Below, piece by piece: positions 2,101 through 34,723 of a stretch of DNA of 35,380 nt. The position numbers and the translations under genes were made by a program. Location of the stretch: assembly GCA_000442125.1 (NCBI GenBank), contig KE546983.1:754244-789623 (forward strand), in the 5' to 3' direction. Numbering within the stretch: position 1 is the first letter of the stretch; every line of letters begins with the position of its first letter. The stretch is from Opeltia flavorubescens (lineage: Eukaryota > Ascomycota > Lecanoromycetes > Teloschistales > Teloschistaceae). The notes beneath the pieces are model-generated. The model searched no databases. It was not told the DNA's origin and saw only the letters and a list, made by a program, of their open reading frames with translations.

Positions 2101-2124
2101 CGAATTCGTTTATAAATAAATTCG
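2101..2124. repeat. Dispersed palindrome, copy A
   Basis: CGAATTCGTTTATAAATAAATTCG-type inverted repeat around a TATA centre, one of the dispersed palindrome family in this window. Its counterpart in copy B (8057-8086) is longer and better preserved. It lies about 200 bases upstream of the first coding-like frame of the unit. Confidence 0.75.
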
Positions 2125-2330
2125 AATATTAATCGATTTATTTATAATTTAGATTTTACTTATTAATAACCGATATAGAATTATTATATAGAATCTAGTA
2201 TATTTTTTTTTCAAGATTATTTTTTTCTATAAATATATCTAGCTAAAATTTATTTAAATCTTTTACTAAAGTTTAAAATCGATTTAATTATAATTTATAT
2301 TTTTTATTTTCGAAAAATAATTAATTATTA

Positions 2331-3960
2331 TTATTTACTTTAAACGCTCGCTATAAAATTAAATATAAACTATTACTACCCGTTATTTACTTTATTATTA
2401 AATTTAATATAAAGTTTTATATAATATTAAAAAAGGATAAAACTAAATTGAAATTATTTTTACCTATTATCTACTCTATTATCGAATTCGAGAAAGAGTT
2501 TTATATAATTTTAGAAGTAAATAAAATTAAATTTCGACTATTTTTATTTATAGCCTATTTAATTATTGAATTCGAAGAAAAATTTAATATAATATTAGAA
2601 GTAGATTTATCTAAAAACTATTATATTTTATATTTTTAAATTAATTCGATAAAATTTCGAATATTTATTATAAATCCTTCTTTTCTATTTCTATTTATAG
2701 CTATTAATTTCTTTAAATTTCGAGTATCTACGCGTTTTACTATCTATTATTTATTAGTATATAAAGTTTAAAATATAACCGTTTTCTTTATATAGCTTTT
2801 TTAACTACTAGTAATTATATAAAATTATATTTCTCTAGTCTATTATATAGCTACTATTAGAAATAGTAAGCCTAGTATATTTAGCGGGAATAATTCGAGT
2901 AATAAATTAAAAAATAAATAAATTTTATAGTTTTTCGAACGAATTCTATTAATAAATTTATTATTTTTATATCGCTAGTATAAATTATTTTAAACTAACT
3001 CTTTTTATATTTTAAAAAATAGTTCCGATAATAATTATAACTCTAATAAAAATTCTAATAATAATTCTATTAAAAGTTCCGATAATAATTTTAATAAAAA
3101 TTCCGATAATAATTTTAATAAAAATTCCGATAATAATTTTAATAAAAATTCCAATAATAATTCTAATAAAAATTCCGATAATAATTCTAATAAAAATTCT
3201 AATAATAATCCTAATAAAAATTCCGATAATTATTTTAACGAAAGTTCCGATAATATAATAAATATAAATATCGAACTTTTTTTTACTACCGATTACTATA
3301 ATATAAGCTCTAATATTTAAATTTTTTTTTTAATATAATTTCTATTATATTATACTTTTAAACGTCCTCGATACTAGATTAATATAATTTTAAATACCGC
3401 GGTTTAATATATATACTTATATAATAAATAAAACTCTATCGAAATTTTAAATAGTAATTAATAATAATAAAAGTTCTATTATCCAGTTATTTATAATAGC
3501 GCGATATATTAATTAATTATAATATAGAATACTATAAATCTATTTTCTAGAAATTAAAAAAAAAATTTAATTATATTATTACTTTTATACTCTACGAAAA
3601 TATTCGAACGGGATATTATAAAATAAAACTTTTTTAATAATAAATAAAAAGCTTTTTTTACTAATTAATTATAATTTTATAAACTCGACTTCTAAATTTC
3701 GAAATATAGATATTTAAAATAAATATTTATATTAAATATTTAAATTTAACGGGAATAAAATATTAATAATTTTATCGTATATATTAAAAGTTTAACTATT
3801 TATAAAACGGCCTTTAAATTTATATACTACTTATTATATAATTAATATATTATAAAAAATTAAAAAGTAATTATTAGTAAAATCGAATTTAACCGCTATA
3901 AATATATCCGGTTTAATTATAATATTAGTAGCGGCGGTTAGGGTTATAGTATATATATAT
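2331..3960 (+). pseudogene. Unrecognised large protein relic, first part (copy A)
   Basis: One reading frame runs from about 2331 through the acidic repeat at 3021-3255 and on toward the poly(A) tract. The piece 2448-2639 is still free of stops even after RIP. It shows two adjacent repeats of about 30 residues, each with the pattern LFL(P/F)I(I/A)Y(S/L)IIEFE followed by ...IILEV. Copy B suggests a third, earlier repeat. The frame stays in register from 2448 to 3024 (192 codons), and copy B keeps the same register, which supports real coding. The other stops are TAA/TAG, as RIP would make from CAA, CAG or TGG. No family is recognised and no start codon can be identified because ATG is erased. 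Confidence 0.5.
3021..3255 (+). repeat. 24-bp repeats coding an acidic tract (copy A)
   Basis: About nine tandem 24-bp units of the form TCC GAT AAT AAT TCT AAT AAA AGT. As read they give S-D-N-N-S-N-K-S repeats. If each AAT/AAA after a T is a RIP product of GAT/GAA, the ancestor was S-D-D-D-S-D-E-S, a strongly acidic low-complexity segment of the kind found in chromatin-associated proteins. The repeat is in frame with the coding-like stretch on both sides. The tract is followed by A-T-rich codons with no clear domain. Confidence 0.8.
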
Positions 3961-3985
3961 TATTCCCCGTAATATATATACTATA
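3945..3985. repeat. AT hairpin around TTCCCCG
   Basis: TATAGTATATATAT-type left arm and ATATATATACTATA right arm flank a short TATTCCCCGTAAT centre. In copy B the right arm reads ATACGTATACCGCAGTAT, so the good pairing in copy A probably arose through RIP rather than selection. Confidence 0.4.
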
Positions 3986-4006
3986 GTATATTTAGAAAAA
4001 GAATAG

Positions 4007-4028
4007 AAAAAAAAAAAAAAAAGGAGAA

Positions 4029-4070
<42 letters not shown>
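4007..4070. repeat. Poly(A) tract (copy A)
   Basis: Sixteen A, then GGAGAAC, then 41 uninterrupted A. The same site in copy B (9966-10027) is a mixed purine tract with G runs. The reading frame changes across it in copy B (frame of 9109 before, frame of 10479 after), so it may lie in an intron or separate two genes. Confidence 0.85.
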
Positions 4071-4072
<2 letters not shown>

Positions 4073-4431
4073 ATTTTTTTATTTTATATAATAAATAAAT
4101 AATTTAAATTAACGAAATTATTATTCTAATTTTAAAAGCTATTTATAATATTAAAATTTTTAGCCGGTATACTATAATATAGAATAATATATTTACTAAA
4201 GCGTATATTTATAATAAATACCGGTAAATAAAAAAATAATTTATTAATTTAATTTATTTTATTTTAATTTTCCGCTTTAAAGTATTTTAATATAAAGTAT
4301 ATATACTAGTTAACCGATAATTAGAATTTTAATAATTTATTTTAATATTATATATTTATAATTTTAAATTATTTATTACTATTAATTTAATAAATTTTAA
4401 TTAAATATAAATATATTATTTTATATATTTA

Positions 4432-6880
4432 AATTTATTTTTTAATATTTTTTTTAAAATTATATTTCTCGAAGAAATTTATTTTAATTTTAATTTTAAC
4501 AATTCTTTTATTTATAGCGGGGTTATATTATTATTTAAAAAATTCTATTTATAAAAATAGACTAAAACTTTTAATAATTTTTAAAATATAATATAATATT
4601 ATAAAATCGATTTTTATTTATAAATATTAACCCGCGATATAGTTTTAATATTAATAAAGTTAGTAAAAAATAATTAATTTTATTATTTATAAAAAATCGC
4701 GTATTTTAAAATATATAATATTATTTTTAATTTATTCTATTTTTTTATTAAAAATATTTTTTTTTTATTAATTTTTTATTCGAAGTTTTTAACTTTATTT
4801 AAATCGAGATTAACTAATAAAATACTATTAATAAATAAAAAGGTAATATTTATCGAGACTTATATAATTTCGATACTTTTATATAAATTATATAAATTAA
4901 AATTTATATTATTAAATAGTTTTTTATAATAAAAACCAGATTTAATAAAACTTTTTATAATATAATAAAATAAACCGAGCCTTTTAAATATTTAAATAAA
5001 CTTATATTTAATAAAATAGCGAAATTTTTTAAAATTTATTAAAAATTTTAAATTATTTTCGCCGCGTTTAAAGCTTTAAATTTTTTATTTTAAAATATTA
5101 AATATTAATAATCTTTAATAATTTTTAAAAAAACCGATACTAATTTTTTTACTATAACCGCTGCTATTAGCTACTAACCTTTTTAGCGTTTAAATATCTA
5201 GAATATTCTCGAGTTTATCTATATTTAAATTAATTAATAGTTTTTTTTTTAAAAACTTTTACCGCCGAGTTTAAATTAGCTCGCGGGTAAAAAATTATAT
5301 CTCCCGCTATATAGAAATACTTTAGCGCTACTATTTAGATTTTTACCCGTACTTTATATATAATATATAAAAGCTAAATTTTATAGAAATTCGAAGCTTT
5401 ATAAAAAAAAAATTAGCGATAAATAATTAAAATAAAATATATAAAATCGTTTATATAACGAAATTCCGTTTATTTTAATATTTAAAAAATTAAATAATAT
5501 AGTTTTAACTATTAGCAAATTTTATATAATTTTAATTTAATATTATTACTTTAGATTTTCTATTAAAAATATTTTTTTATTTTTAAAATCGAAATAATTT
5601 TAGATTTAAATATAATTAATACGTTTTAATAATATTTTTAAATATAATAGAATATCGCCGGTATTATTTTATAATAGAATAATAAATTTATTAAATTATA
5701 AAAGATAGCTTTATAAATATAAATAGCGTAGAGTAAATTTATAATATATTCGGAAACTTATTAAAATTTATAAAATTTTATTATTAAACTAATTATTTAA
5801 ATATATATAAAACGGATATAAAATATTTTTAAATATCGCGTTAAAAAAAATTTCCCTTTAAATAAAATAAAAAATATTAGAAAAATATTTTATAATATAC
5901 TATTTTAAAATTAAAGCGATAATTTTAAAAATTTATTATTTTATTTTATATTTAAAGTTATTAGATTTAAATTTTAAATTATTTATTTTTATAAATTAAA
6001 AAATTTAAATAATAAAAGTTTTAGAATTTTTAAAATTTAATCGGCTTTTTTATTATAAATAAATTATATATAAAAATTATTCGACTTCGAAAATTATATT
6101 ATAAATAATTTATATAGATTTATATAGGAATAAAAGTAGTATTATTTATATATATAATTTATATTCGCTATTATTTAAAATAAACTAATTTTAAAATATA
6201 TATAAAAATAGTTCAAGTATTTAATTTAATTAGCTAATTATTATTTTTTAATTTTTTTTTACTATAATAATAATCGAATTTATAATAAATATAAAACTTT
6301 AATTTTTATTAAACTAGTAATAAAAACTAAAACTAAAAGTAATTAGCTCTAGTTATATTATATTAGCTAGATTATTTTTATAATTTTAGCGGAATTATTT
6401 TAATTTTTTAAATATAGATTAAAAAATTATAAATTCTATTTATATTTTTTTAAATCCGTTTTTTATTTAAACGATTACTATTCTTTTAAAAAATAATATA
6501 AAAAATTTAATAAAAATACCGAAAAAATATTATAAATCGCCGCGATAAAAGTATTCGATATTTATAATATACTCGCTAAAAAAATCGAAAAAAAATATAC
6601 TTTTAAAATTGTTATAATTATAATCTCTATATATAAACGAATAAAAAAAATAATTAAATATATATATTCGATTAAATAACCTATAAAATTAAATAAAATA
6701 CAAGAATTTATAATTTTATATAATATCTATAAAAATAGAAATAATAAAAAAAGCGATATTAATAATAAAAAAATATTAAAATTATTTTTTAAATTCGAAA
6801 ATTAAGCGTTATAAAATTAAAAAAATCGAATAATATATAAAAAATTTATATAAACGGCTATATTTATCTATAAACAACTT
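4432..6880 (+). pseudogene. Unrecognised large protein relic, second part (copy A)
   Basis: Counterpart of 10389-12840 in copy B. The same frame can be followed with only TAA/TAG interruptions, but copy A is far more AT-converted, so the protein is best judged from copy B. No family is recognised. A perfect palindrome (6961-6992) lies just downstream. Confidence 0.4.
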
Positions 6881-6960
6881 TAAATATTCGATAAATATAT
6901 AATAATTATATTTTATTTATTTGTAAATAATTTTAAATTTTCGATAATTATTAAATAACT

Positions 6961-6992
6961 ATACCGAATTTATTTATAAATAAATTCGGTAT
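6961..6992. repeat. Perfect 32-bp palindrome
   Basis: The left half ATACCGAATTTATTTA is the exact reverse complement of the right half TAAATAAATTCGGTAT. It is the longest perfect member of the dispersed family and sits just past the coding-like stretch of copy A. The corresponding copy B site (12923-12948) is imperfect. Confidence 0.95.
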
Positions 6993-7415
6993 TTTATTAA
7001 ATTTATTTAATAGTTAAAATATTAATTTTTATTATTATATAATAAAATATTTAATAATATTTGTTTTAATATTAATTTATTTAAATTAATAAAATTATAA
7101 TAGTAATTTTAACTTTAATAATTTATTAATAGTTATATCGAAAAATTTATTAAAAAATAGAAATTTAATTTTTTATATAATATTATTATATTACCGCTAT
7201 ATTAAAAAATAATAATAATCGCAAATAACGTAACTTAACTTAAGGTTAGATATAGGATTTAGAGAAAATTTCGAATTTTTTTTTCTACGACCGCGGGATT
7301 CTTATTCTATTTACTATACCTATTTAATCTTAGATAAAAAAACTTTTAACTAGAAAAGTCTATAAAACCCTTTTATATAAAATATTCTGTTATTTCTTTA
7401 TTATTATTTTTATTT

Positions 7416-7434
7416 ACTAGTAAATATTACTAGT
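7416..7434. repeat. ACTAGTAA inverted repeat (copy B)
   Basis: ACTAGTAA-ATA-TTACTAGT. The arms match copy A's at 1456-1474; only the centre differs (ATA against ACG). Confidence 0.5.
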
Positions 7435-8056
7435 TTTTAATCTAATTTTTTTTTATTATTAACTTTTAATATTCGGATTATTAATAGTTCGTATAAAATA
7501 TTAATAATATATCGATTAATTATAACCGATTTTTAAAATTAAGCGCGGATTTATTATTAAATTTTTATATCTTTAAAATTTTTTAAATCTCGAATTATTA
7601 ATTAAGTTCGATCTTTAAAATTAAATATAAAAATTATCCTTTTTTTATTTTATATTCCTAGTATTATTTTTCTAAAATAGAACCTTTATATTCTTTCGTC
7701 CTATATATTCGTATCCCCTTTCTCGCCTTTTTATTCTATTTTATTTTTTTCCTTTAAAAACGCTCTAATAGGTAAATAAAAAAGGTCCTCTATTATCTTT
7801 AATAATAAAGAGAAATATATATAGTAATTTTTATAGTAACGGGCTAATTAAACGAATTTTACAGCTTGCTAAATAGAAATACTAACTATATAATCCGAAT
7901 TTATCGCTCGAAATTTATCTATAGTAATTATAGCTATAAGCCTATCTTTTAATACAACTATCGTATAGACTATTCTCCCTTTTATAATTATCCCTCCTAC
8001 CCTTAAAAGGGAGAACTAAAATTTAGTTAGTATATATTCTTTTATTTATTTATAAG

Positions 8057-8086
8057 GCCCGAACTTATTTATAAATAAATTCGGGC
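8057..8086. repeat. Dispersed palindrome, 30 bp (copy B)
   Basis: GCCCGAA at the left edge, TTCGGGC at the right edge, and TTATTTATAAATAA across the centre. There is one unpaired position (C opposite A), which a single G-to-A RIP change would explain. Confidence 0.9.
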
Positions 8087-8289
8087 ACTAATTAATCTAT
8101 TTATAATTTAGATTTTACTCGCTAATAACCGATATAAGGTTATTATATAAAATCTAGCGTACTCTCTTTCTAAAACTATCTTCCTTTATAGATATACCTA
8201 GCCGGGGTCTACTTAAATTTTTTACTAGAACCTAGAATCGATTTAATTATAATTTATATCTTTTATTTTTAAGAAATAATTAACTATTA

Positions 8290-9955
8290 TTATTTACTCT
8301 AAACGCTCGCTATAAAGCTAAATATAAACTATTACTACCTACTATTTACCCTACTATTAAGTTCGATATAAAGTTTTATATAATATTAAAAAGGAATAAA
8401 GCCGAGTTAAAATTATTTTTATTTATTATCTATTCTATTATTAAATTCGAGGAAGGGTTTTATATAATTTTAAAAGTAGATAAAGTTAAGTTTTAACTAT
8501 TTTCGTTTATAGCCTATTTAATTATTAAATTTAAAAAAAGGTCTAATACGATACTAGAAATAGATTTATTTAAAAACTATTATATTCTATACCTTTAAAC
8601 TAACCTAATAAGGTTTTAAGTATCTATTATAAGTTCCTCTTTTTTATTTTTATTTATAACTACTAACTCTTTTAAGTTTTAAATATCCACGCGTTTTATT
8701 ATCTACTATCTACTAATATATAAAATTTAAAGTATAACTGTTTTTTTTATATAGTCTTTTTAACTACTAGCAGCCGTATAGAATTATATTCCTCTAGCCT
8801 ACTATATAGCTACTACTAGGAATAGCGAGCCTAGTATATCTAGCGGGGATAATTCGAGTAATAAATTAGAGGATAAATAGATCTCGCGGTCTTTCGAGTA
8901 AATTTTATTAATAGGTTTATCGCCTTTATATCGCTAGTATAGATTATTTTAAATTAACCTTCTTTATATTTTAGAGGGTAGCTCTAATAGTAATTATAAC
9001 CCTAATAAAAATTCTAATAATAATTCTATCGAAGGTTCCGATAATAACCTTAATAAAGGTTCTAATAATAATCTTAATAAAGATTTTAATAATAATTCTA
9101 ATAAAAATTCCGATAACGACCTTAATAAAAGTTCCGATAATAATTCTAACGAAAGTTCTAATAACGATTTTAATAAAAGTTCCGATAACGATTTTAACGA
9201 AAATTCCGATAATATAATAAATATAAATACTGAACCTTTTTCCACTACCGATTACTATAATATAAACTTTAATATTTAAATTCCTTCTCTAATACTACCT
9301 CTATTATATTATACTTTTAGATATCTCTAATATTAAACTAATATAGCCTTAAATACTACGGCTCGATATATATATTTATATAGTAAATAAAACCTTATTA
9401 AAGTTTTAAATAGTAATTAATAGCGGTAAAAGTCCTATTATCCAGTCGCTTATAATAGCGCGATATACTAATTAGTTATAATATAAAATACTATAAATCT
9501 ATTCTTTAAAGATTAGGAGGGAAACCTAATTATATTATTATTTTTATATTCTATAGAAATACTCAAGCGGGATACTATAAAGCGAAACTTTTTTAATAAT
9601 AAATAGAAAGCTTTTTTTACTAGCTAGTTATAATTTTATAAATTTAATTTTTAAGCTTCGGAACGTAGATACTTAAAACGGATATTTATATTAGGTATTT
9701 AGATTTAATAGAAATAGGATATTAATAGTTTTATCGCGTATATTAAAAGTTTAACTATCTATAAAACGGCCTTTAAATTTATATACTACTCGCTATATAA
9801 TTAATATATTACAGAAAATTAAAGAATAATTATTAGTAAAATCGAATCTAACCGCTATAAATATATCCGGTTTAATTATAATATTAATAGCGGCGGTTAA
9901 GGTTATAATATATATATATTATTCCCCGTAATACGTATACCGCAGTATATTTAAA
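8290..9955 (+). pseudogene. Unrecognised large protein relic, first part (copy B)
   Basis: A single register runs from about 8290 to the purine tract. It holds three successive repeats of about 30 residues (8317-8394, 8407-8496, 8497-8571) with the shared pattern L-(P/F)-I-Y-.-I-I-K-F and ...-M-I-L. Next come a Ser/Gly/Asp-rich linker, the acidic 24-bp repeat tract (8980-9213) and a tail rich in aromatic residues (about 9590-9950). There are few stops before 9280 and none from about 8980 to 9280; those present are TAA/TAG. I know of no family with this arrangement. Acidic repeats suggest a nuclear, chromatin-linked protein, but that is inference. The start codon is not identifiable. Confidence 0.5.
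8980..9213 (+). repeat. 24-bp repeats coding an acidic tract (copy B)
   Basis: Same array as 3021-3255 with more G and C left. Units such as TCC GAT AAC GAC CTT AAT AAA AGT retain original Asp codons, which supports the S-D-D-(D)-(S/L)-D-E-(S/G) ancestor. The leucine/serine-rich open frame on the opposite strand over 8994-9245 is a shadow of this repeat. Confidence 0.8.
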
Positions 9956-9965
9956 AAAAAAATAG

Positions 9966-10027
9966 AAAAAAAAAAAAAAAAAAAAACTAGGGGAAAAAGG
10001 AAAAGGGAAAAAAAAAAAAAAAAAAAA
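9966..10027. repeat. Purine tract (copy B)
   Basis: Long A runs broken by CTAGGGG, GG and GGG. It occupies the place of copy A's pure poly(A) tract. G-to-A mutation or slippage could convert one form into the other. Confidence 0.8.
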
Positions 10028-10388
10028 TAATTTTTTCGTTTTATATAATAAATAAATAATTTAAATTAATAAAATTATTATTCCGGCTTTAAAGGCTATT
10101 TATAGTATTAAAATTCTTAGCCGGTATATTATAATATAGAATAATATACTTATTAAGGCGTACGTTTATAATAAATATTAATAAACGAAAAAGTAACTTA
10201 TTAATCTAACCTACTCTATTCTAGCCTCCCGCCTTAAAATATTTTAATATAAAATATATATACTAGCTAATCGGCGACTAGAGTTTCGATAATCTATTTT
10301 AATACTATATATTTATAATTTTAAATCGTCCGTCGCTATTAATTTAATAGATTTTAATTAAATATAGATAAACTACTTTATATATTTA

Positions 10389-12840
10389 AATTTATTTTTC
10401 GATACCTCCTTTAAAATTATATCTTTTAAAGAAACCTATCTCGATTTCGATTTTAACGACTCTCCTATTTATAATAAAGTTATATTATTATTTAAAGAAT
10501 CTTATCTATAAAAATAAGTTAAAGCCTTTAATAACCCCCGGAATATAGTATAATACTATAAAATCGATTTCTATTTATAGATACTAACCTATAATACAGC
10601 TTCGATATTAGTAAAACTAGCGGAAAATAATTAACTCCGTTATCTATAAAAAATCGTGTATTTTAAAATATATAATATTATTTTTAATCTATTCTACTTT
10701 TTTATTAAAAATATCTTCTCTTTTATTAATTCCCTATTCAAAGCCTTTAATTTTACCTAGATCGAGATCGACCAATAGGATACTATTAATAAACGAAAAG
10801 GTAATATCTATTAAAATCTATACGATCTCGATACTTCTATATAGATTATATAAACTAAAGCTTATATTATTAAATAGTTTCTCGCGATAAAAACTAGATT
10901 TAATAAAATCTTTTATAATATAGTAAAATAAACCGAGCCCTTTAAATATTTAAATAAATCTATATTTAATAAAGTAGCGAAATCCTTTAAAATTTATTAA
11001 AAGTTCCGAATTATTTTTACCGCGTTTAAAATTCTAGACTTTTCGCTTTAGAATATTAAATATTAGCGACCCTTAATAATTTTTAAAAAAACCGGTACTA
11101 ATCCCTCTACTATAGCCGCCGTTACTAACTACTAACTTTTTTAGCGCTTAAATATCCAGGATATCCTCGAGTTTATTTATACCTAAATTAATCGATAGTT
11201 CTTTCTTTTAAAAGCCCTCGCCGCCGAGTTTAAACTAGCCCGTAAGTAAAAGGTTATATCTCCCGCTATATAGGAATACCTTAGCGCTATTATTTAGGTT
11301 TTTATCTGTATTTTATATATAATATATAAAGGTTAAATCCTATAAAAGTTCGAAGCCTTATAAAAGAAAAGCTAGTAATAAATAGTTAAAATAAAATACG
11401 CGGGGTCGTTTATATAACGAGATTCCGCTCGTTTTAATATTTAAAAGATTAAACAGTATAACTTTAACTACTAATAGATTCTACGCGATTTTAGCTTAAT
11501 ATTATTACTTTAGATTTTTTACTAGAAATATCTTCCTATTTTTAAAGCCGAAATAATCCCGGATTTAAATATAATTAACACGTTTTAATAATACTTCTAA
11601 GTATAATAGAATATTACCGGTATTATTTTATAGTAGGATAATAAGCTCGTTAAATTACAAGAGATAGCCCTATAAATATAAGTAGTATAAAATAGATTTA
11701 TAGTACGTTTAAAGGCTCGTTAAAACCTATAAAACTCTACCGCTAAACTAGTTATCTAAATATATATAAAATAGGTATAGGATATTTTTAAATATTATAT
11801 TAGAAAAGATTTCCCTTTAAATAAAGTAAAGAATATTAAAGAGATATTTTATAATATACTATTTTAGAATTAAAACGACGGTTTTAAAAGCTTATTATTC
11901 TATTTTATATTTAAAATTATTAGGTTCAAATTCTAAATTACCTACCTTTATAAATTAAAAGGTTTAAATAATAAAAGCTTTAAAATCTCTAAAGTTTAGT
12001 CGGCCTCTCTACTATAGATAGATTATATATAAGAACTATTCGGCTTCAAAGATTACGTCGCGGGTAATCTATATAGACCCGCGTAAAAATAAGAGTAGTA
12101 TTATCTATATATATAACTCGTATTCGCTATTATCCGAGACGAGCTAACCTTAAAATATATATAAAAGTAGTTTAAATACTTAATCCAATTAATTAGTTAT
12201 TGTTTTTTAATCCTTTTCTATTATAATAATAACCGAATTTATAATAAGTATAAAGTTCTAATTCCTATTAGGCTAGTAGTAAAGGCTAAAGCCAGGGGTA
12301 ATTAGCCCCAGCTACGCTATATTAGCTAGATCGTTTCTATAGTTCTAGCGGAATCGTTTTAACTTTTTAAATATAAATTAAAGGGCTATAAATCCCGTTT
12401 ATACTCCTTTAAATCCGTCTTCCGCTCGAGTAATCGCCGTTCTTTTAAAAAATAATATAAAAGACTTAATAAAAATATTAAAAAGACATTATAAATCGCC
12501 GCGATAAAGGTATTTAACGCTTATAATATACTTATCGAAAAAATCGAGGAAGAATATATTTTTAAAATCGTTATAACTATAATCCCTATATATAAATAAA
12601 TAAAAAGGATAATTAAATATATATATTTAATCGGATAACCTATAAAATTAAATAAAGTATAAGAGTTTATAACTTTATATAATACCTATAAGGATAGGGA
12701 TAATAAAAGAAGCGATATTAACTATAAAAAAACGTTAGAGTCGTCCTTTAAACTCGAGGATTAGGCGTTATAAGGTTAAAAGAGTCGGGTAATATATAAA
12801 AGGTCTATATAAACGGTTATATTTATTTATAAACGATTTT
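10389..12840 (+). pseudogene. Unrecognised large protein relic, second part (copy B)
   Basis: From about 10389 one frame (codon phase of 10479) reads through more than 2.4 kb with interruptions that are essentially all TAA/TAG, implying a relic of roughly 800 residues. The amino-acid mixture looks protein-like: alternating hydrophobic and charged stretches with Gln/Trp-position stops, a small/charged patch near 11205-11250, and a basic Ser/Arg patch near 12415-12460. I do not recognise a domain. It may continue the product of 8290-9955 across an intron or be a separate gene. A palindrome follows at 12923-12948. Reading through stops is permissive, so the exact extent is uncertain. Confidence 0.4.
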
Positions 12841-12922
12841 AAATACTTAATAAGTATATAGTAATTATACCCTATTTATCTATAGGCGACTTTAGACCCT
12901 CGGTAATCGTTAAATAATTATA

Positions 12923-23226: not shown

Positions 23227-24754
23227 TATTTTAACTTTTACGGATATAGTATTATAAAAAAGTAGAACCTTCGTTTATTTATATACGGGTTAGGCCTAAT
23301 ATTAAAGCCTATATTTTTAGTTTATTATTATTATAAATTAAAATAGTTTAAACTAGTTATTTACTAGTAGCCTTTTTTTTTTAAAAAATATATTTTTCGT
23401 CTTTAAACAATTATAAGATTAATAATACTATATTTAATAATATAGAGATATAAAATACCCCGACCGGTCCGCCTCGTACTAATTAGTAGGTACTTAATTA
23501 ATATTAGATTTTAGCGGAAAAACTACCACTAGGTTTATTCTTTATAGTTCGATACACTATTTTTATATATTATTTTAAAGGAATTGCACCGGATTTAAAG
23601 GTAGTTTCCTCAACAATAATTTATATTAGAGTTACTAGAAAAAGATTCGGTTAATATAAACCCTACGGTTTATAATACACTTATAGCTTAAGCTATATAA
23701 AACCCTTATAAAGTTATCGATATTAGCGTTTCTATACGCCTAATAATATTTTATCAAGGTAAAATAAAACTTTAAAGGATTAATAATCGATTTTTTCTTT
23801 TTTAAAAAGATCTAAGTCTTTTTATAGAATTAATATATAAAGTTTACAACTATTCGGTCGAAGTACTATTTTTTAGTTAATAAATAATAAGCAATTTATA
23901 ATATATATAGATTTTATAAATTAAAGTATTTTAAAGCTTAATATTTTAGAACTAAAAATTTAACTACTATAGAGATATTTTTATTTAAATAGGATTAGAT
24001 AGATTATTACTATACGCGGTACCTTCGATTAAAAGTTTATCTATTTTATTATAAGGAAATACTAACTTCTTAATAAAATCTCGTTAATTTATATATATTA
24101 AAGGTATTTAAAGGCTAGTTTAATAGTTTCGACCCCGTTTTACTCCTAAAGAAACGCTATTATACGCGTTTTTATTTAATAAAGTCTTCCGCTTTTATAA
24201 TCTATTATCGTTCTAATAGAATTATAAATTTTTTACCTCTATTTAAATATTTAAATTCCCTTCTTTTAACGCTCTATCAAGCTATTTTTTAAATTTAACA
24301 GTCGTCTTTAGACTATAATAATACGCCTGTTTTTAGGGTTAATCGTTCTAGAATATTTAAAATTCGATAAATCGATACTCGAAGATCCTATTACGCTATT
24401 TTTTCTACTAGAATTTTCAGGTGTTTAAAGTAAACCTTAATATACGCTCTTATAATAAATCTAAATAAATTTAAGCGTTGATATTACAATTAATAAAGCT
24501 ATCGAATTGATTTAAAAAGATTTAAAAACCTATATAATAATTTTAAATATTATTAAAATTAAAGTCGAGCGAGTATACTATATTTCTAGGTTTAATAATT
24601 ACTTTTAACTGATTTAAATAAAGGATATTTACTTAAATTCGTCGTTTAAATAAGCTATAGCTACTTTTATATTTCTATACTATTCACCCGCCCTATCTTT
24701 TAATATAACTATTTAGTTTTTAAGTATATTAAGATACCGGATCTTTCTAGTAGT

Positions 24755-24778
24755 ACTCGCCTATAATTAAGTTCGGCC
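24755..24778. repeat. Dispersed palindrome
   Basis: ACTCGCCTATAATTAAGTTC followed by GGCC. The left arm is in the CTCGCC form; the right arm is AT-converted but ends in the family GTTCGGCC. Confidence 0.7.
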
Positions 24779-25800
24779 TATTTTTACTTTTTATATAGAG
24801 TTAACGGGTTTTATAGCTAATATTTATAGCAATAAAAATCGATTATCGGAACTTTTAATAATAGAATACTACTAGGACTAGTTATAAAACGCCTTTAAGC
24901 GGTAATTAAATATAAACGAATTATACCGTATATTTAAAACGAGTATAATATTTATTTCCTAGTTTAAACTAGACGACTATATTAATTTAGCTTGGAATAA
25001 CCTAGTAGAATATATATATTTAACCCGATAAAATATCGAACTAATTTATAGACGAGTAAAATTTATATTTAACTATAAATAAATTTAATATAATTCAGGT
25101 AATATCGGCTAAATATTATTTTTCGATTTTAAAACCATTTAGGTTACTATATTAAAATAATAAAGCTTATCTATAATTTATAAAATTAGACCTCGGTTTC
25201 GACGATATTCTAAAAATCCTTTTCCTTTAAATATTCTATAATAACCCGCCGAAGGCTAAGTACGCGGTAAACCTTAATAAAGAGTTAGCTAATCGCTAGC
25301 TAGAAGTAGTAATTATAATTAACTAAATACTTATTAAAAACTTTAAAATAATTTTAAAGCTAGAAAAAACGTATTATCGCTTATAGTATTAATTTATTTT
25401 AGCTAGCTCGGCTACCTAGCTCTATAATTAAAACCTAGGGACTGGTTTTTTAAATTCTTTTAGTCTATAATACCAAATCTATATAACTACGATTAGATAA
25501 ACCGCTTAATAGCTAACTTTATAGATTTTAATAAGAAAATTTAGTAAAGACGACGCTTATAATTTTTATTTATATTTTAAATAATAAAGTAAAGTAAGTA
25601 AAAGATTATAAAATTGTATTACTAATTTTTATATATATTTAAATCGAACCGAATTCTTTATTTAAAGATTTTACTAGGTTAATACTTACCGAACCTATAT
25701 TTAATCCTTTATTTTATCTAATTTAAAACTTTTTATCTTTAATAATTACTTCCTACTATTATATCTAATTTATCTATCGATACTCTTCTTCTATCTATAA

Positions 25801-25823
25801 AACTCGCTTATAGTTAAGTTCGG
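25801..25823. repeat. Dispersed palindrome
   Basis: AACTCGCTTATAGTTAAGTT followed by CGG: family arms around TATA. Confidence 0.7.
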
Positions 25824-26379
25824 TCGATTACCCGATAATAATTTACTTATAATAATCGATATAGCGAAAAAATTCGTCGACCCGATTTTATAATATCCCT
25901 TCTAGTAATATATAAGTCCGAAACCTTAAATAATAACTAGTATACCAGTTTAATACTAGTACTTTTTCCTTTATTTTACTCCCTCTAATTTTTATTTTTT
26001 ATAAATTTTTATCTTATTCTTCCAGGACTTCGTTTATAAATTTATATTTTTATAACCTAATCTTTTTATATCCGGTTTAAATATTTTTTCTCTTTTAAAT
26101 ATCTAATTTAGAGTTCCTATCTATTAAAAGATTACTTCTTCCTTTAAACCCTAGTATAGGTATATTATATTACTTAATAAATATACCTATTCTTTTTCGG
26201 TTCCCTATTATATAATTATAGCTTTTTACTAGAGTAAAAAAGTCTTCTACTCGAATATAAAAGTATTCTAGAGGTTTTTATCCGACCGTTTATCCTTAGA
26301 TTAACTAGTATATTTACCGCCTCTAGTTAAAATAGAGGTTACTAACTACACGGCAGTATTACTACTATAATAAAAAAAG

Positions 26380-26830
26380 GATAGAATTTAATCCCGTCCG
26401 GTCGTAAAAGAATTAGATATAAACAAGTATCCGGAGTTTATCGGATTAATAGATACAGTAAAGAATTTATCTAATATAGGGATATAAACCTAAAGAAGTT
26501 TAAATAAGCGGTAGATTACTTTTTAGCTATATATATATCGTTTTCTAAACTATAAATACCTCAATAATAATCAAACGCTTAAATTTCTAGATAATCTAGT
26601 ACTATATTATAATTTTCGTAGAAAAATAAATACAACCTTCCGGTATTATAGGGAGGGTTAACCCCTTATATTATAATTTTTCGCCTATAGCTATCTTTTA
26701 TACTATTAAGGCTGTATCTATAAAAAAATACAACGCTAAATTATACTAAGTTTATATACGCGATATAAATTTATCGCCTTTTTTTTTATTTATTATATCA
26801 ATTTTTATCTTTTTATTATATTTTATAACG
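26380..26830 (+). pseudogene. Possible coding relic, unrecognised
   Basis: Two + frames read through with TAA/TAG interruptions only; one includes a basic Gly-Arg-Lys-Arg-like patch near 26400. No family is recognised, and openness alone is poor evidence in RIPed DNA. Confidence 0.18.
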
Positions 26831-27615
26831 ATAAAATAGTTATAAAATCGATTTTTTTATTTTTTATATTTCTACCCGTAGCTATCGGCCGTTAAAAAAT
26901 CGAATTCTAAAAAATAATTTTATCTTCTTATAAAAGTATTAAGAAGATAAAAATTCCGGAGATTATAGAAATCGATAACAACTATATTATTATTAAAATA
27001 TACGAATTCTTTTCCTACGCCTTAATTTACTATACCGCGAATCGGGTAAACCCGAGAAATTTTTTTTTCTTAATATTATATATATTAAGCTAAATATCCG
27101 GAAGAATAATAACTTTAAGCTATTTTATAATATAACCCCTAATTAGGTTTTACTAAAACCTATTATAAGTTTAATTTTCGAAACTAAAGCGTTTAGCTCG
27201 ATAACTAGTAATATACAATATATAAAATAAGTATAACTTTCGAACAGCTAATAGCGATTAATTAAGTTAGTTAAAATTAAGTAAGAGAATCCGGAAGGAA
27301 TATTAGGTATTTACCCCGATTTATAAATACTATAAGTATATAATAGTCGAAGTTATACCCTAATTATTCTATTAATATTCCGTTTCTAGTCGCGACTACT
27401 ATATATTCGTTACTTTTACCGATTTTAATTTTTCTTTAATTTCTCGATTTTTTAATACCCGTTTTATAAATATTTATTATTATTAAAAAACTATTTTACT
27501 ACTATATTATTACCTAATAAGATCGAGTTTTTTTCGAGTTAATTAATATTTATCTATTACGCCTACTCTAGTTACTTATTAGTAATACCCGGGTAGGTAA
27601 AATAACAAAGCGAAA
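26831..27615. other. RIP-degraded stretch, no gene recognised
   Basis: No motif, repeat or palindrome of the dispersed family was seen here. Confidence 0.4.
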
Positions 27616-28086
27616 GAAATAATTAGATATTAGCTAGGTCTAATATTATATAAATATAAATAACCAGTTTTTTAAAAATACTATATTAGATAGTAAACTA
27701 ATAAATTCCGATTAAATAAACCTTAATACTTTATTTAAAGTTTAGATATAATTTAAGAAAATTATAATAATATTATACTAGATTTTTTTATTAAATAAAA
27801 TAAAGTTAGATTATAAAAGATAATTTTAAAAAAAAATAAAAAATATTCAAGAATTTACGGAAAGAAAATAAAAAATAGCTATTTTAATAACTCTCGTTAA
27901 ATTTACCGCGCGAGATCTAATAAAAAATACGCGGGGACTATTACTTTAAATCCTACGTAAAAGAGTTTTATTTCCTTATTTAATAACAATTAAAGTTACG
28001 GTTTTATATATTAATACAATTAGGGCCTCTAATTTCTATCCTTATTAGAAGTTTTATAAACGCTATACCTTAAAGTTATAACGGCG
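27616..28086 (+). pseudogene. Possible coding relic ending at a palindrome
   Basis: A frame of about 155 codons, rich in Lys, Gln-position stops and leucine, reads without TGA until just before the palindrome at 28089. The amino-acid pattern (Lys/Asn/Glu-rich helix-like stretches near 27800-27900) is protein-like but matches nothing I know. Confidence 0.2.
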
Positions 28087-28088
28087 CG

Positions 28089-28110
28089 GAATTTATTTAT
28101 AGGCGAGTTC
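28089..28110. repeat. Dispersed palindrome
   Basis: GAATTTATTTATAGGCGAGT then TC: the left arm is AT-converted, the right arm GC-retaining. Pairing is restored if left-arm A/T are read as RIP products. Confidence 0.8.
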
Positions 28111-29339
28111 GACGCGAATATACCTATAATACCCGATTTAATAAGGAAAGTATATAAGTTAATTATTTTTTATCCTATTAAGGTATAATTATAGTATTAT
28201 TATAAGTTATAAAGCTTATATTATTTTATTCCCTATTTCGTTAAATTTATTATATCTTAATATTTTAATTTTCTAGGCTTTTTTCCTTCTCTAATCTACT
28301 AATAATTCGATTACTACTAACTTTATTTAAAATTATCTTCTCTTTTTAAATATATCTATTAAAATAGTTAAACGCTAAAGTAATAATTTTTTAATTACTT
28401 ATTTTCCGACTTTAAATTAGCTTATCGCTTAAAATATAAAATCCTTTAAATTTAGTCCCTATAATAAAATATCTAGGGTTAAACTAATATTATAGGTTCT
28501 ATAGGATATTATATCCGAATTTATATTAAAAGATTAATAAATTACGATTTAAATAGGCGATAATATATTATAAATACTTTTTCAAGGTCAAGGTATATAC
28601 GGTTAAAAAAGGGAGATTTTTTTAAATCGATCTATTTATTTAAAACCGATATTATAGACGTTATAATTAAATAAATATAATTATTTTAAAGGATATTAAA
28701 GTCTAAATAGTTTCTAAAATAATAAAGCAGCCTCTAAAAAAGTACTAGAAATCCAACCTGATTATAATTATTAACAAATCTTCCGTTGAAAAATATATTA
28801 AAGCGAAAACCAGTAAAAATATACCGGCGGTTATCTTTTTAAAGAACTTTTCCTACTAAAAAACGTAAAGAATCTAGATATCTATTAAAATTAATAAAGG
28901 TACGGTATATTAATACACGCTATATAGCGTTATAACGTTTCTTTCTATAAAACCGATCCTTTATATAAAGGTATTAGGTTTAGGATTCGCTCTAAAATTA
29001 AGTTTTCCGTATAGATTCGTAGAAGTATAAAGCTATCTAACTATAATATCGGTATTAATATAATAACTCGAAATATAATATAGTATTATACTATATTATT
29101 AATAGCTCTACCGCTTATTTATAAAGGATTAAATAAATTATAAAGTTATTCTATTAATAAAGCCTTTTAACCCGTTATATATTATTTTAAACTTTATACA
29201 ATAGCGCTAAAACGCTTGATTACTATTATTCTCTTTATTCTCTCCTACAGTACCCTTAAATAGTTAATTTAAAATAACCTGAAATTTAGTTCGCTTTCTA
29301 ATAATTTTATTTAATAGCCGTCTAATATCGTTTTTACTA
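28111..29339. other. RIP-degraded stretch, no gene recognised
   Basis: No family motif seen. Several words with surviving CA (near 28580 and 28750-28810) hint at slightly weaker RIP than in the left half of the window. Confidence 0.4.
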
Positions 29340-30960
29340 CTTTTAGAAGCTGAGTTGTACCGATATAATATATATTTTATAATTTCTAACTTCGATAATA
29401 ATCGAATAGGCGTTAGAAATAATAGTCTTAACCGTAGCGGGGAGGATATAATTATAGCCGATAATAATAACGATAAAAAGGTCGATAACTAATAGGCTAG
29501 ATTAATAATATCTATATCGGCTTTATACTTTAAAGTTATCCGGGCCCTTTAATAAAACTATTTTCGAATTATACTATCCGCTAGTATTTATAAGGATTTA
29601 TTAGCCTCTAGATCAACTTTATAGTCCGAAAAAGAAGTATAATCCGAAAAAAATTTAATTGTTTTTAATTTAAATAGTAATAACGGAATATTCTATAACC
29701 GACGTTCCGACTATTATATAATTAGTTTTTCTAATAATAATAAATCCAAATCCGAGCTACTATTTTTTTTTACTAATTCCTAACGCTTTAAGTATTGTTT
29801 TTCCAAAAACAAAAAAAGTAGGCGTTTACGATAAAATAAAGGTTAAAAATTTATATTATCGTTTTTTAAAGTATTAATATAATTTTAAAGAGTTTTTAAA
29901 ATATACGAGTATAGTATAAATAATCTTATAGTAGTAGCTTTAGAGGCGGTCTAATTAAAAAGATTAACGGTTAAATTTAAAAATAGATTACCGCGTATTA
30001 AAAACCTATATCTAATATAAAAGCGAAAAGTAGGAGTTTAAATCTATTATTATTAGTAGTAAATTCTTCTAATCGATACCGTATAATCTACCGAGCCTAA
30101 AGGTAGTTAAATATTAAAAGGAAAAATTAGATCTCGAAAATCCAGGTCGAACCCGTATAATAATAAATTTATAGCTAGAAAAAAACTAGAAATTAGGTTC
30201 GGGTTTAGTTGTTTAAGTAAAAAATTTTTATATTATAGAGTTAAGAAAGGTTTATAAGTTCCTATTAATAGTTATTAACTAGTTATTGTTAAAATTAAAC
30301 GGCTGGAGAAAATCGGTAGCTAGATTAATTAGATAGTTAGTACTTTACTAAAAAATACTAGCTAAATTTCGAGGTTAAACTAAATTCTATATCGTCGAGA
30401 TATTTATATTTTAGGTACAGGCCGACGGTTCTAAACAAGGGATTTTAAGCGCTAAAGCTATTACCGCGCTAATATTTATACTAGATACACTACTATAAAC
30501 TCGTATAATCCTTTATCTTATATACTATCTTTAAAATTTTTTATTATCTAGACTATTAAAAATTAGATAGGTAAAAGTTATAATCTTATAGAACTTATTA
30601 AACGGAATTTTTCTAACTATATTAAAAGATAAGATTATTATACTTTTCTCTTTAAAGCCTCGGGCGTTTATTTAAATTACATCTATTAGATTATTAATTT
30701 ATCCCTATCTATAATCTATTTAATCCTTTCTTTTATAATAGAAAAAATAATATAGACTAGAAATAATCGGAATTCCCTTTTATTTAACGCGTCTATAGGT
30801 ACTAATATACTAATATACTATATAATATTTATAATAAGGTATATTATCTTTATATAATTTTAATATAAACGTATAAATCGATTAATTAATTACGCGTCCA
30901 ATATTACAAACCTCCTTTATAAACGATATTAATAGGCGTATAGTAACTATTAAAAAATCC
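29340..30960 (+). pseudogene. Second SNF2-like (DEAH-box) relic
   Basis: The block 30799-30909 aligns base for base with 16939-17049 of the first SNF2 relic (constant offset 13860). It includes the motif II codons AAT AAG GTA TAT (ancestral D-E-A-H) at 30833-30844 and the downstream Q-T-Y-K-S-I-N-Q-L pattern. After 30909 the similarity fades and motif III is not readable. Upstream, 30424-30474 reads D-G-S-K-Q-G-I-L-S-A-K-A-I-T-A-L, which resembles the region around SNF2 motif I with the GLGKT core missing. Further upstream (29390-29480) is an Asp/Asn-rich stretch and then a basic one (about 29800), plausible for an N-terminal extension. The DEAH block is well supported; the boundaries and N-terminal part are guesses. 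Confidence 0.5.
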
Positions 30961-31264
30961 ATTTTTTATAGAAAATAGGTTGTAATAAAACTGGAAGGAG
31001 AGCTACTAAATTTTAATATATAAATATATACTAATATATTTATTATTCTACTAATTATATATACGGACCTTTATTAAACTTTATATTTCGAAACTAAAAA
31101 AGATTTTCTAGTAATTCCAATTATATAACGCTTTATTATAATTCGGACTTTTTAATTCGCGGTAAATAAATATTATATATAAAACCCCGGCTATACTAAA
31201 ACCTTTTTATTTATTTATCTAATCTATTCGCCTTTTATTAATATTCTTTACTTCTAGAATACCA
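30961..31264. other. Spacer before the duplicated gene pair
   Basis: Possibly the decayed continuation of the DEAH-box relic. No further helicase motif was recognised and no palindrome was found. Confidence 0.35.
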
Positions 31265-31317
31265 GACTAGGCTCAACCGGCGTATCTATTCGCCCGGGTT
31301 TCGTTTTTTTCCTTAAG

Positions 31318-31357
31318 CCGAACGCCGAAGCGCGGAAAGTTCTAGCAAAATATAAAA
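31318..31357 (+). promoter_or_regulatory. Conserved promoter-like block, copy 1
   Basis: CCGAACGCCGAAGCGCG, then GAAAGTTCTAGCAA, then TATAAAA at 31351-31357, followed by a long T/C tract (about 31370-31403). The identical 17-mer, spacing and TATAAAA recur in copy 2, while flanks differ. GAA/TTC modules resemble a heat-shock element, which is a loose match. Confidence 0.5.
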
Positions 31358-31403
31358 CCGAAAACTATTTTTAGATTTTTTTTTTTTTTTTTTTTTTCTT
31401 TTT

Positions 31404-32060
31404 ATAACTACCGATATTTTAATTATTAGATTTACTTTTATAGTCTACTATATTTAAGTTTTCTACTCGACCTATTTACGGGCTATATACCTATTAAAGT
31501 AAAATCGATACCCTAATATACTATAGTCTTATTATAGAATACGCGGCTTTCGAGCTAGTAATTAGTAGAAACTAATTCTAATTTTCTAGTACTCTATATC
31601 GGAGATACCTAGAAGCGAAAAGGTAACGCCCGAGGAAGCGCTAGACGGTTTCTACTTTAAAGAAATCGCGCCTAAAGGGAATAACTAACCGAGATAAATA
31701 TATAATTTAAATCTTTTCGCGGTATTTAGAATTAACCCGTAAAAGAAAAACAATAGAATTTCTATAATATATTATTAGAGGTATAAAATTATCCTTTATA
31801 TATACAATACTTTAAAAATTAGCGCCGGGCCGATAGTATTAATATATATTTAAATTATATTTACCTACCGGCAGCTATATATATTTAAAATTAAAAAAGC
31901 CGATATTTAAATAGCGCGGAAATACTAGGTAGAGCGTTTATATAATTCGGTTTAGAACTTTTCGATACTAATAGATTCAGCAAAAATATTAAAAGGATTA
32001 AGGCCGTAGTTAAATATATCCCTTATATTATACTCTTTAAAATTAATTGTTAATTTTTTT
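31404..32060 (+). pseudogene. Unrecognised gene relic, paralogue 1
   Basis: Phase 0 from about 31560 to 32010 gives a protein that aligns with paralogue 2 without indels over its centre. Shared points in order: K-L-I-L; V-T-x-E; F-Y-F; (N/D)-x-F-x-V-F-x-I-N-x-[stop]-K-K-N-N; Y-Y-[stop]-(R/K)-Y; L-M-Y; K-A-D-I-[stop]; K-Y-[stop]-x-E-x-L-Y-x-S-x-[stop]-N-F. Several stops fall at the same codon in both copies, as expected of shared CAG/TGG positions hit by RIP. No family is recognised. The length is roughly 200 or more residues. It begins within about 200 bases of a promoter-like block. Confidence 0.6.
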
Positions 32061-32385
32061 TAAAATAGTATATATTTATTCAATTAACTTCTTTAAATAG
32101 CAGCGGAGCCGAATTCCTAGAATATAATAGGTTAAATCTACCCGTCGAAGGATTATTTTAAAAAAACGTATATAGAATCGCGTAATAAGTCGAAGAAAAA
32201 TAATATTTAGTTTAATATAGAGGTTTATAGTAATAGTTAAAATCTAATAGTAGTCTAGTCTATTTAAAAATAGCCGTATAATTAAGGGTTAGAAGCTTTT
32301 AAATATTTTTTTTAACTTTTACTAATATATTTTTTTTAATTAGAATAGTAGATATTTAATTTAAAAACTATATTATTAGATATAA

Positions 32386-33344
32386 TCTCCAGTATATAAA
32401 TAAAAAGGATTTATATTATTTAAAATACTTTTAATTACCTAAATAATTAGTAAAATTTAACGGATTTTTTTTTTTTAAACCCCCTTTATTCTACTATTAT
32501 TATTAAATTAATAGAATTTTATATAATTTATTTAAGGCGCCGTTAGACCGAACTTATCTATAGGCGAGTTCGACTCTATTTCTAGTAATTATAGCGTAAA
32601 TAACCTTTAAAGTAAAAGCGTTAAAAAGTAGTTTAATTAGAAAATTTAGCGTTTAAACGCAGGTATTACTCGTTTTATATTAAGGATTTATACCCGATTT
32701 AAAGGTGTAGCTAGAAGGATTATATAATCGATAGACTATTAAAAAGTATCTAGCTAGTTTAAAGTTCAATTTTTTAGTTATTAGTAAAAATATTAAGGTA
32801 TCTAAATTCTAGGGCCTTAATATAGCCCCTTTTCAACGGTTTAGGGTCTTTTTAATCGTTAAATACTAGTTAAAGCTATATTAATATCAAACCGGTTAAT
32901 ATAATAATATTTTATCTATAAAATTACTTAGAACTATTTTAGTCTACTAGCCAGGTTATAATTTTAGCTATAAACTAGAAGTTTTTAATATTAACCCCTA
33001 ATCGCTGCGGATATTTATTTTTATATATTTTACCGCCCTATAAACGCTTATAGAGCTTATATTTATAATTTTTAACTTTACCCTTTAAACTTAAATCAGG
33101 CTATATACTTTCCGGCGGCCGCCGAACTTATTATTAAGGGTTTTAACTATTTATACAATAATATATATTTAAATCCTATAATAAAAAGCTACCGTCCAGG
33201 CTTTATAACCTTATATAGAGCTTATATAAAATTTCGGCTCCGCTAGCCTCTTTTAAATTATTTATCTAGAATAGTTATTCTTTATTTATTCTATTTATTA
33301 TAAAATAAATTATCCCTTTTACTATAAAATAAATTATTTAACTC
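32386..33344. other. Spacer between the two paralogues
   Basis: Contains one dispersed palindrome (32549-32572). No gene was recognised. A short direct repeat, ACTATAAAATAAATTAT-like, lies near 33298-33350 at the left edge of copy 2. Confidence 0.45.
32549..32572. repeat. Dispersed palindrome, 24 bp
   Basis: CGAACTTATCTATAGGCGAG followed by TTCG: outer arms CGAACT/AGTTCG intact, with inner left-arm positions AT-converted. Confidence 0.85.
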
Positions 33345-33387
33345 GACCGGCGTATTTATTTATTTAAACTTCGTCTTTTTCTTTAAA

Positions 33388-33427
33388 CCGAACGCCGAAG
33401 CGCGAAAAATTCTAGAAAAATATAAAA
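33388..33427 (+). promoter_or_regulatory. Conserved promoter-like block, copy 2
   Basis: CCGAACGCCGAAGCGCG at 33388-33404, then AAAAATTCTAGAAA (a TTCTAGAA inverted pair, the core arrangement of a heat-shock element), then TATAAAA at 33421-33427 and a T/C tract. Spacing is identical to copy 1. Confidence 0.5.
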
Positions 33428-33471
33428 GCAGAAGCTATTCTTTAAATTTTTCTTTTTTTCTTTTTTTTTTT

Positions 33472-34100
33472 ATAACTACTAACTATTTAACCACTAAACC
33501 TACCTTATTAGTTTCCTATAACCAGATAAAAGGATCTTCAGCTACGCTTCCTTTCGGGTATATAGCTATCGAAGTAAAATAGATATCCTAGCGTATATTA
33601 GGCTATCGAGTCGCCGTTTAGAAAAAGCTAATTCTATTTATCCAATTTATTATACTAAAAGCACGCGAAAACGGAACGGTAACAATCGAATAGAAATCGG
33701 ATAGTTTTTATTTCGATAAAATCGGGCTTTAAAAAGAGTACTAGCCTAAATATAAATATAGTCCCGATTTTTTTACGGTATTTAAAATTAACCTATAAAA
33801 AAAAAATAATAAGACTTTTATCTACTACTATTAAAAGTATACGGTTATACTTTATATATATAAAAGCGGTAAAAAATAGGCTACTAGGCCGAAAATATTA
33901 ATATACTTCTAAATTAAAGCCGCTAAAAAGCAGCTAGTTATATAAAATTGTAATAAAGCGGATATCCAGATAATATAAAAGTATTAAACGGAATAATTAT
34001 ACGGTTCGATTTAGAATTTTATAGCTCTAGTAAATTCGTTAAAAGTATTAATAAAATTAAAATACTAATCCAGTACGTTTTTCTTTATATATTACTTTTT
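33472..34100 (+). pseudogene. Unrecognised gene relic, paralogue 2
   Basis: Phase 1 from about 33610 to 34080 matches paralogue 1 residue by residue over more than 130 codons. The best-kept segments are V-T-I-E...F-Y-F, F-F-T-V-F-K-I-N-L, K-K-N-N-K, Y-Y-Y-[stop]-K-Y, and K-A-D-I-[stop]-M-M-[stop]-K-Y-[stop]-T-E. Conservation at protein level between two diverged copies argues for a real gene before RIP. It is the most telomere-proximal gene relic, about 1.2 kb from the TTAGGG array. Confidence 0.6.
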
Positions 34101-34604
34101 AAAAATTATCGTAAATTTCGCTTTAAACGGAAAATATTTAAAGTACTAACTTTTATTTAAAGAGCAGTCTCGAATCTATAAAATATAATAAATTAGGTCT
34201 ATCCGGTAGAGGACGACTTTATAAAAATATATATATATTTATAATCGGATTCAGATATAAAAGAGAATAAATTAGATTAAAAATTTCGAGACGGTAGAAA
34301 TAAGCCGATAGTAGCCTAAAATAGATATAATCGGCGGTATAAATAAAAAAAATTCTTTTGGGTATTAATTTTTAGAATTTACTAATATTTTTTTTTTAAC
34401 TAGACTAGTAGGTATTTAATTTAAATATTATATTATTTATTAAAAATTATAAAGTAAAATTATTTTAACTCTAGTTTAATTATATAAAATCGCGTAAAAT
34501 ATAATAACCCGGGTTATTTAAATATAAAAATATTTATATTTATAGATAATTATCCTACTATTATAATAATTAGAATATTTAAATATATATTAGTAATACT
34601 AAAA

Positions 34605-34634
34605 GGCCGAACTTATCTATAAATAAATTCGGCC
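34605..34634. repeat. Dispersed palindrome, 30 bp
   Basis: GGCCGAACTTATCTATAAAT then AAATTCGGCC: outer arms GGCCGAA/TTCGGCC pair perfectly, with inner mismatches of the RIP type. Together with 34696-34723 it forms a pair 91 bases apart with similar flanks. Confidence 0.9.
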
Positions 34635-34695
34635 CCTTTTTATCCTACTGGTATAGTAATAAAATTATTTGAAGATATATTAATAATAATACAAC

Positions 34696-34723
34696 GCCGA
34701 ATTTATTTGTAAATAAATTCGGC
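34696..34723. repeat. Dispersed palindrome, 28 bp, nearly perfect
   Basis: Arms GCCGAATTTATTT and AAATAAATTCGGC pair perfectly around a central GT. It is the member closest to the telomere, 556 bases from the TTAGGG array. Confidence 0.92.

Follow-up and report, generated by a model that had tools for sequence, protein, structure and literature searches.

Short palindromic sites recur through a subtelomeric block degraded by repeat-induced point mutation in Opeltia flavorubescens and are candidate relics of protein-binding sites

Short DNA sequences with two-fold symmetry are known from several settings. The PstI palindromes of Neurospora mitochondria are short and dispersed and hold a PstI site, the operators of dimeric proteins are two-fold symmetric with conservation strongest near the centre and weaker at the outer positions, and the miniature inverted-repeat transposable elements (MITEs) of fungal DNA transposons have inverted arms and many copies. 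Short palindromic repeats are also described for the organelle DNA of Volvox carteri (PMC2670323). For degraded repeats that contain helicase genes, the closest described system is the X3X3R8 cluster of Parastagonospora (Stagonospora) nodorum, a multicopy repeat degraded by repeat-induced point mutation (RIP) that has Rad5/SNF2-like helicase genes and also a Rad6-type ubiquitin-conjugating gene (Hane & Oliver 2010, PMC3017866). The subtelomeric family of P. nodorum in that paper is X26 (RecQ-like), not X3X3R8, and the word palindrome is absent from the X3X3R8 text in the part of the paper available (PMC3017866). Here we describe a family of 28-bp palindromic sites in the last 35.4 kb of Opeltia flavorubescens contig C19 (KE546983.1, positions 754244-789623; genome 34.4 Mb, 23 contigs), a stretch of 35,380 nucleotides that we call the window. 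Such sites were not named in the titles and abstract openings of the open-licence papers searched. We give roughly even chances to their being relics of candidate binding sites for a symmetric (dimeric) protein in a dead subtelomeric gene block.

Contig ends are named here by contig and side (C2R is the right end of C2, C18L the left end of C18, and so on), the window being C19R. Its G+C content is 21.6%, and the depletion of CpA (observed/expected 0.11) and TpG (0.06) is a mark of heavy RIP and points to a filamentous ascomycete. The sites lie in a block of ~28 kb (7209..35279, plus strand) and in an extra upstream copy, copy A (1250..7142, plus strand), of a 6-kb unit whose other copy spans ~7209-13100; both units have two sites each at equal relative positions. 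Copies of the block were found at eight contig ends (C2R, C18L, C13R, C19R, C1L, C4L, C12R and C21R) and pieces of it at C14L and C3L, so that the whole or partial block is present at ~10 contig ends. Comparison of window positions 7001-35279 with C2R revealed 5172 transitions against 88 transversions, together with 11 gaps, of which 7 fall within 7210-35278. With its near-exclusive transitions and its presence at several chromosome ends, the block is a RIP-mutated subtelomeric repeat.

A scan of the window with a RIP-tolerant 28-bp consensus identified 23 sites matching at ≥21 of 28 positions, compared with a mean of 0.23 and a maximum of 2 in 30 dinucleotide shuffles. Seven further places scored exactly 20/28, among them 19646, the counting of which brings the window total to 24; the spacing between sites is 0.1-4.9 kb through the block. 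Because the consensus was derived from the same data, a second test was added. Since the mutations made by RIP are all transitions, DNA reduced to purines and pyrimidines is blind to it. Reduced in this way, with 17 of its positions fixed, the 18-bp core gives a RIP-blind pattern that has 21 occurrences in the window, 20 in 28.8 kb of C2R and 15 in 14 kb of C18L. The reversed pattern has 0 occurrences, and 83 other palindromic purine/pyrimidine patterns of equal make-up occur at most twice each on C2R. The core was found once in the control chromosome ends (147,405 bases from the terminal 10 kb of 15 further contigs, with four block-copy ends and one all-N end excluded), and that occurrence is within the C3 piece of the block. 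A consensus-free search for strict palindromes (arm 12, ≤2 mismatches) gave 64 in the window versus 37 per shuffle (maximum 44) and, with stronger enrichment, 13 in C2R versus 3.5 per shuffle. The strong signal is therefore the common core, not perfect symmetry.

Genome-wide searches, which score the best candidates only, placed nearly all matches listed in the block or near contig ends. The half-site (≤1 mismatch) had 15 matches, none of them further than 28 kb from a contig end (control 0), and the 26 strand matches (22 places) to a RIP-tolerant 21-mer all lie within 23 kb of one (control 0). The TATA form of the site (≤3 mismatches) was found at 10 places, all in the block (control 1), and the un-RIPed form (≤3 mismatches) at 23 places, 20 of which are in the block (control 0); the other three are on core chromosomes, at the 3-mismatch limit and with altered centres. 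No good match beyond the block was present among the matches listed for the 34.4 Mb. An earlier note on this DNA had listed 19 entries as one dispersed subtelomeric palindrome family, and when read at their coordinates all 19 carry the core it described, give or take a few bases. Neither palindromes of equal quality and number in shuffled sequence nor a uniform spread over core chromosomes, either of which it had named as grounds for abandoning the family, was seen. Its description of the contexts as unrelated holds in so far as many flanks are dissimilar, but all of them belong to one duplicated block and its extra 6-kb unit, with paralogues and tandem repeats included.

The limits of the site are sharp. 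In a conservation profile of 16 of 22 sites (12869, 15973 and 16047 were not entered; 14215, 16010 and 34696 were removed as dependent), conservation spans the 28 bp and is near chance beyond, with isolated flank columns up to 0.81. Transversion-type departures from the consensus number 7/288 in the core versus 26/160 in the outer arms, defined as the outermost five bases per arm (p = 2e-7). Five of the seven core departures are one shared GT-for-GG change, which marks an asymmetric subfamily of neighbouring sites, all five oriented toward the telomere. The ancestral word was close to GCCGAACTCGCCTGCAGGCGAGTTCGGC, with the 18-bp core ACTYRCCTGYRGKYRAGT; the least damaged copy, GCCGAACTTACCTGCAGGCGAGTTCGGC, is in C2R. 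The TATA centre on which the earlier note built its definition is indeed present at 23 of 24 sites in the window, yet it appears not to be original at most of them. At 16 of 22 sites (2 to 7 sequences compared per site, window included, with C4L counted twice at 28086) at least one copy retains G or C somewhere in the four-base centre, and TATA is found in every copy at six. The G/C-keeping centres are TGCA at seven sites, TGTA at five, and TACA, CGCA, TACG and TGCG at one each, so that the TATA centre is mostly RIP decay.

Copy A of the 6-kb unit has the sites 2099..2126 (25/28) and 6963..6990 (26/28). At 8058..8085 (26/28) the centre is TATA in all three sequences compared, including the little-mutated C3 left end, and TATA may therefore be original at this site; 12922..12949 (27/28) also has a TATA centre in every copy compared. 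Centres of TGTA were recorded for 13619..13646, 14328..14355 and 28086..28113 (26/28), and of TGCA for 21298..21325. The divergent site 14195..14222 (TACA centre) overlaps by 8 bp with 14215..14242, for which the C2R copy keeps CTCGCCTGCAGGCGAG. At 19646..19673 (20/28) the C2R copy reads TATACTCACCTGCAGGTGAGTA, and the GCCGAACTTACCTGCAGGCGAGTTCGGC of C2R is its copy of 32547..32574, a paralogue of the 34606 site. The GT-for-GG subfamily, all on the plus strand, comprises the asymmetric 17739..17766, together with 21786..21813, 23198..23225 (CGCA centre), 24750..24777 and 25797..25824 (TGCG centre).

Some sites are also local tandem repeats of one another (12869/12922, 15937-16047 and 34606/34696). 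The variant site 12869..12896 is in a 53-bp tandem array and its GC-richest reading has a TGCA centre; a 37-bp minisatellite (15937..16074) holds four sites, at 15937, 15973, 16010 and 16047; and 34606..34633 (28/28) and 34696..34723 (27/28) are in a 90-bp tandem repeat, the latter site in its second unit. The minisatellite has five units at C18L (L037, 8819-8993) and four at C2R and C19R, so the number of sites varies between block copies. Larger imperfect inverted repeats surround two of the arrays: one around the 90-bp array (window ~34595-34734; 143 columns, 67% alike in C2R) and one around the 37-bp array (window ~15896-16083; 194 columns, 61% alike in C2R).

The local repeats and one paralogue pair allow sites to be compared with flanks of the same age. 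Between adjacent units of the three tandem arrays, transversion-type changes were found at 1/108 core positions versus 19/126 spacer positions (p = 7e-5), a test using within-array spacers, with outer-arm bases included, and omitting the 36-bp step with which the 37-bp array begins. The paralogue pair belongs to two modules, A (approximately 31240..32609) and B (approximately 33312..34671), which end just beyond the 32547 and 34606 sites, respectively. The paralogy of these modules is ancient (192/1328 transversion-type differences), and their two sites are in register, the offset being 2059 versus 2060 in the nearest difference-free stretch. The site has 0/28 such differences versus 58/194 in the adjoining spacer (p = 1.4e-4). 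The symmetric core thus looks constrained relative to same-age flanks, as a palindromic protein-binding site would be, on the basis of few independent events.

The sites are RIP-decayed copies of one two-fold-symmetric word, about GCCGAACTCGCCTGCAGGCGAGTTCGGC, recurring through a block that also holds SNF2-type helicase relics. Before the block died, the core appears to have been preserved as flanking DNA diverged. That pattern would fit binding by a symmetric (dimeric) protein with a putative role in the genes or the chromatin of the block. Later the block with its sites was copied between chromosome ends, and RIP afterwards mutated the copies, converting most TGCA-like centres to TATA. The comparisons establish the family, its confinement to the block, its RIP history, the 28-bp limits and the conservation of the core in local repeats and one paralogue pair; the binding protein, its dimeric state and its function are inferred. 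A more elaborate form of this scenario, in which the block carried ~20 long symmetric sites of its own for a dedicated dimeric protein that organised, silenced or exchanged chromosome ends, spread between telomeres together with them, was healed beside a site at some ends and was then erased by RIP to leave a TATA-centred ghost, strikes us as improbable. More generally, RIP ruins genes yet preserves purine/pyrimidine order, and a RIP-blind comparison can retrieve a conserved family of cis-elements from what seems to be mere AT debris. Relatives with a live block, should they exist, would permit a direct search for the putative binding protein, which might prove to be an organiser of fungal chromosome ends.

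Several observations weigh against binding-site relics. A length of 28 bp is long for a single dimer. The 37-bp array has no core difference and no spacer difference either (0/19), and the contrast therefore derives from two arrays and one paralogue pair, a small number of independent events. In the module alignment, 91 other 28-column windows are also difference-free (95/796 including the site's own 4), and what carries information is solely the comparison with the spacer next to the site. The modules have no codon periodicity, and much of their divergence may therefore postdate gene death; all six frames of the modules align with similar scores, and no coding strand was chosen. Permitting one mismatch in the RIP-blind core gives 27 occurrences in C2R, ~3 above the prediction from the control rate, and 19 in the control ends. 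Finding sites by their core may also miss copies with damaged cores. Lastly, purine/pyrimidine codon statistics are too weak for gene models from which the sites could be placed relative to promoters.

The alternative that survives best is a mobile palindromic mini-element, whether a hairpin or a solo terminal repeat, which proliferated in an ancestor of the block and was then killed by RIP; we regard it as possible, though unlikely. The sharp 28-bp limits with dissimilar flanks, a consensus that is a perfect palindrome and the overlap of the 14195 and 14215 sites all agree with it, and the GT-for-GG subfamily of five neighbouring sites is what would be expected of copies of copies. A mobile element should have dispersed beyond one locus family, which was not seen among the matches listed, and changes in the core are rarer than those in the outer positions. 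Furthermore, the 32547/34606 pair is older than the ancient module duplication. Every block copy compared has its site (2 to 7 sequences per site), with neither an empty site nor a target duplication, a weak test because all copies descend from one block. The suggestion of hairpin mini-elements made in the earlier note gains nothing from these comparisons, nor from the arms, which do not covary: only two both-sided changes were found in all (16 sites × 14 pairs).

That lack of compensatory change also bears on a second alternative, which we consider doubtful, namely that the sites acted as hairpins in RNA, either marking where transcripts of the block genes end or signalling their processing. 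The 4.9- and 4.5-kb gaps between some sites are gene-sized, and three of eight copies folded as single-stranded DNA were below z = -2 (the window copy of 12922 at -5.4). The other five were not below that value, z being positive for 24750 and 17739, and the outer arms break the pairing. Five loci scanned against Rfam had no match. A tRNA scan of eight loci found none.

A third alternative, that the sites were points of exchange or breakage at which the block passed from one chromosome end to another and telomerase healed the ends, appears very unlikely. C18L, C4L, C3L, C12R and C13R each have their own point at which the block gives way to telomere repeats, from which it follows that ends were truncated and healed repeatedly. 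For the six telomere-healed ends, the distances to a site are 12, 20, 236, 556, 738 and 2080 bp (the C21R junction was not placeable, and the count does not include C1L and C2R). The two closest are C18L, where the telomere begins 12 bp past the 24750 site, and C4L (20 bp). Two of six within 20 bp gives p = 0.03, and three of seven within 50 bp gives p = 0.015 once the internal C14L junction (41 bp) is included, but both cut-offs were chosen after inspection of the data. C13R, C12R, C3L and C19R are 236-2080 bp away, and the mean log distance yields p = 0.16 for the six junctions, or 0.085 with C14L, so that the distances together are not unusual and the recombination sites proposed earlier find little encouragement in them. 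Finally, despite the mild enrichment of strict palindromes in the window and the presence of local arrays, an origin of the sites as palindromes arising by chance where DNA is very AT-rich, or as mere leftovers of local tandem repeats, has almost no likelihood, as the core is much more frequent than in shuffles or at the other chromosome ends and than the control patterns, and flanks are dissimilar at most sites; the shuffles, the control ends and the 83 control patterns refute a chance origin.

SNF2-domain relic 1 (16997..17352, plus strand, approximate ends) matches PF00176 with E = 3e-8 in C18L, and in the genome-wide PF00176 search it scored 23.2 bits, below the cut-off. The block has more than one SNF2/Rad5-like helicase relic, the second (30580..31173, plus strand, approximate) being assigned by its similarity to relic 1 and to a C3 core fragment. 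A further SNF2 match, weak (E = 0.012) and located near 15.7 kb, might mean that the first helicase gene enclosed the 37-bp array. Among the matches listed, there was no Helicase_C in the block and no Rad6-type ubiquitin-conjugating domain (PF00179), which RIP may hide, in any block copy. Pfam frame scans (both strands of L041 and L037; the plus strand only of L009, L043, L010, L001, L042 and L002) detected only SNF2, and Protein Data Bank (PDB) sequence searches with three plus-strand frames each of L009 and L043 found nothing. In the non-subtelomeric SNF2-like fragment C3:193464-194116 (L045), adjoining pieces resemble both block helicase relics, chimera-like. Each 6-kb unit also has a repeat of 24-bp period (3033-3255 and 9003-9214), the second of which reads open and acidic in C2R and is probably a gene relic. 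The window ends in a TTAGGG telomere (35280..35380, plus strand), just inside which ~80 bp (35200-35279) retain many CpA and TpG and have an un-RIPed look; this stretch is common to C1L and C2R, where it extends ~38 and ~57 bp further, respectively, before their telomeres. Diverged pieces of the distal part of the block were also observed at the C21 left end (5528-9536 and 18946-19262).

In comparison with the described systems, the block resembles X3X3R8, so far as the latter is documented in the source available, in being RIP-degraded, in having several copies and in holding more than one SNF2/Rad5-like helicase relic, and it differs in having no PF00179 match among the matches listed. Like MITEs, the sites have inverted arms and many copies, but they are without an interior or a conserved flank, and the copies compared include no empty site or target duplication. 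The organelle palindromes, described as selfish hairpins of noncoding DNA, are likewise short and dispersed, and the un-RIPed centre of the block sites, CCTGCAGG, includes a PstI site; in contrast to them, the block sites are confined to one chromosomal block, their core is conserved and their arms do not covary. Palindromic operators differ from the block sites, which number ~20 through 28 kb and are 28 bp long. By sequence alone, the sites may nevertheless be likened to such operators, with which they share two-fold symmetry, conservation strongest near the centre and weaker outer positions.

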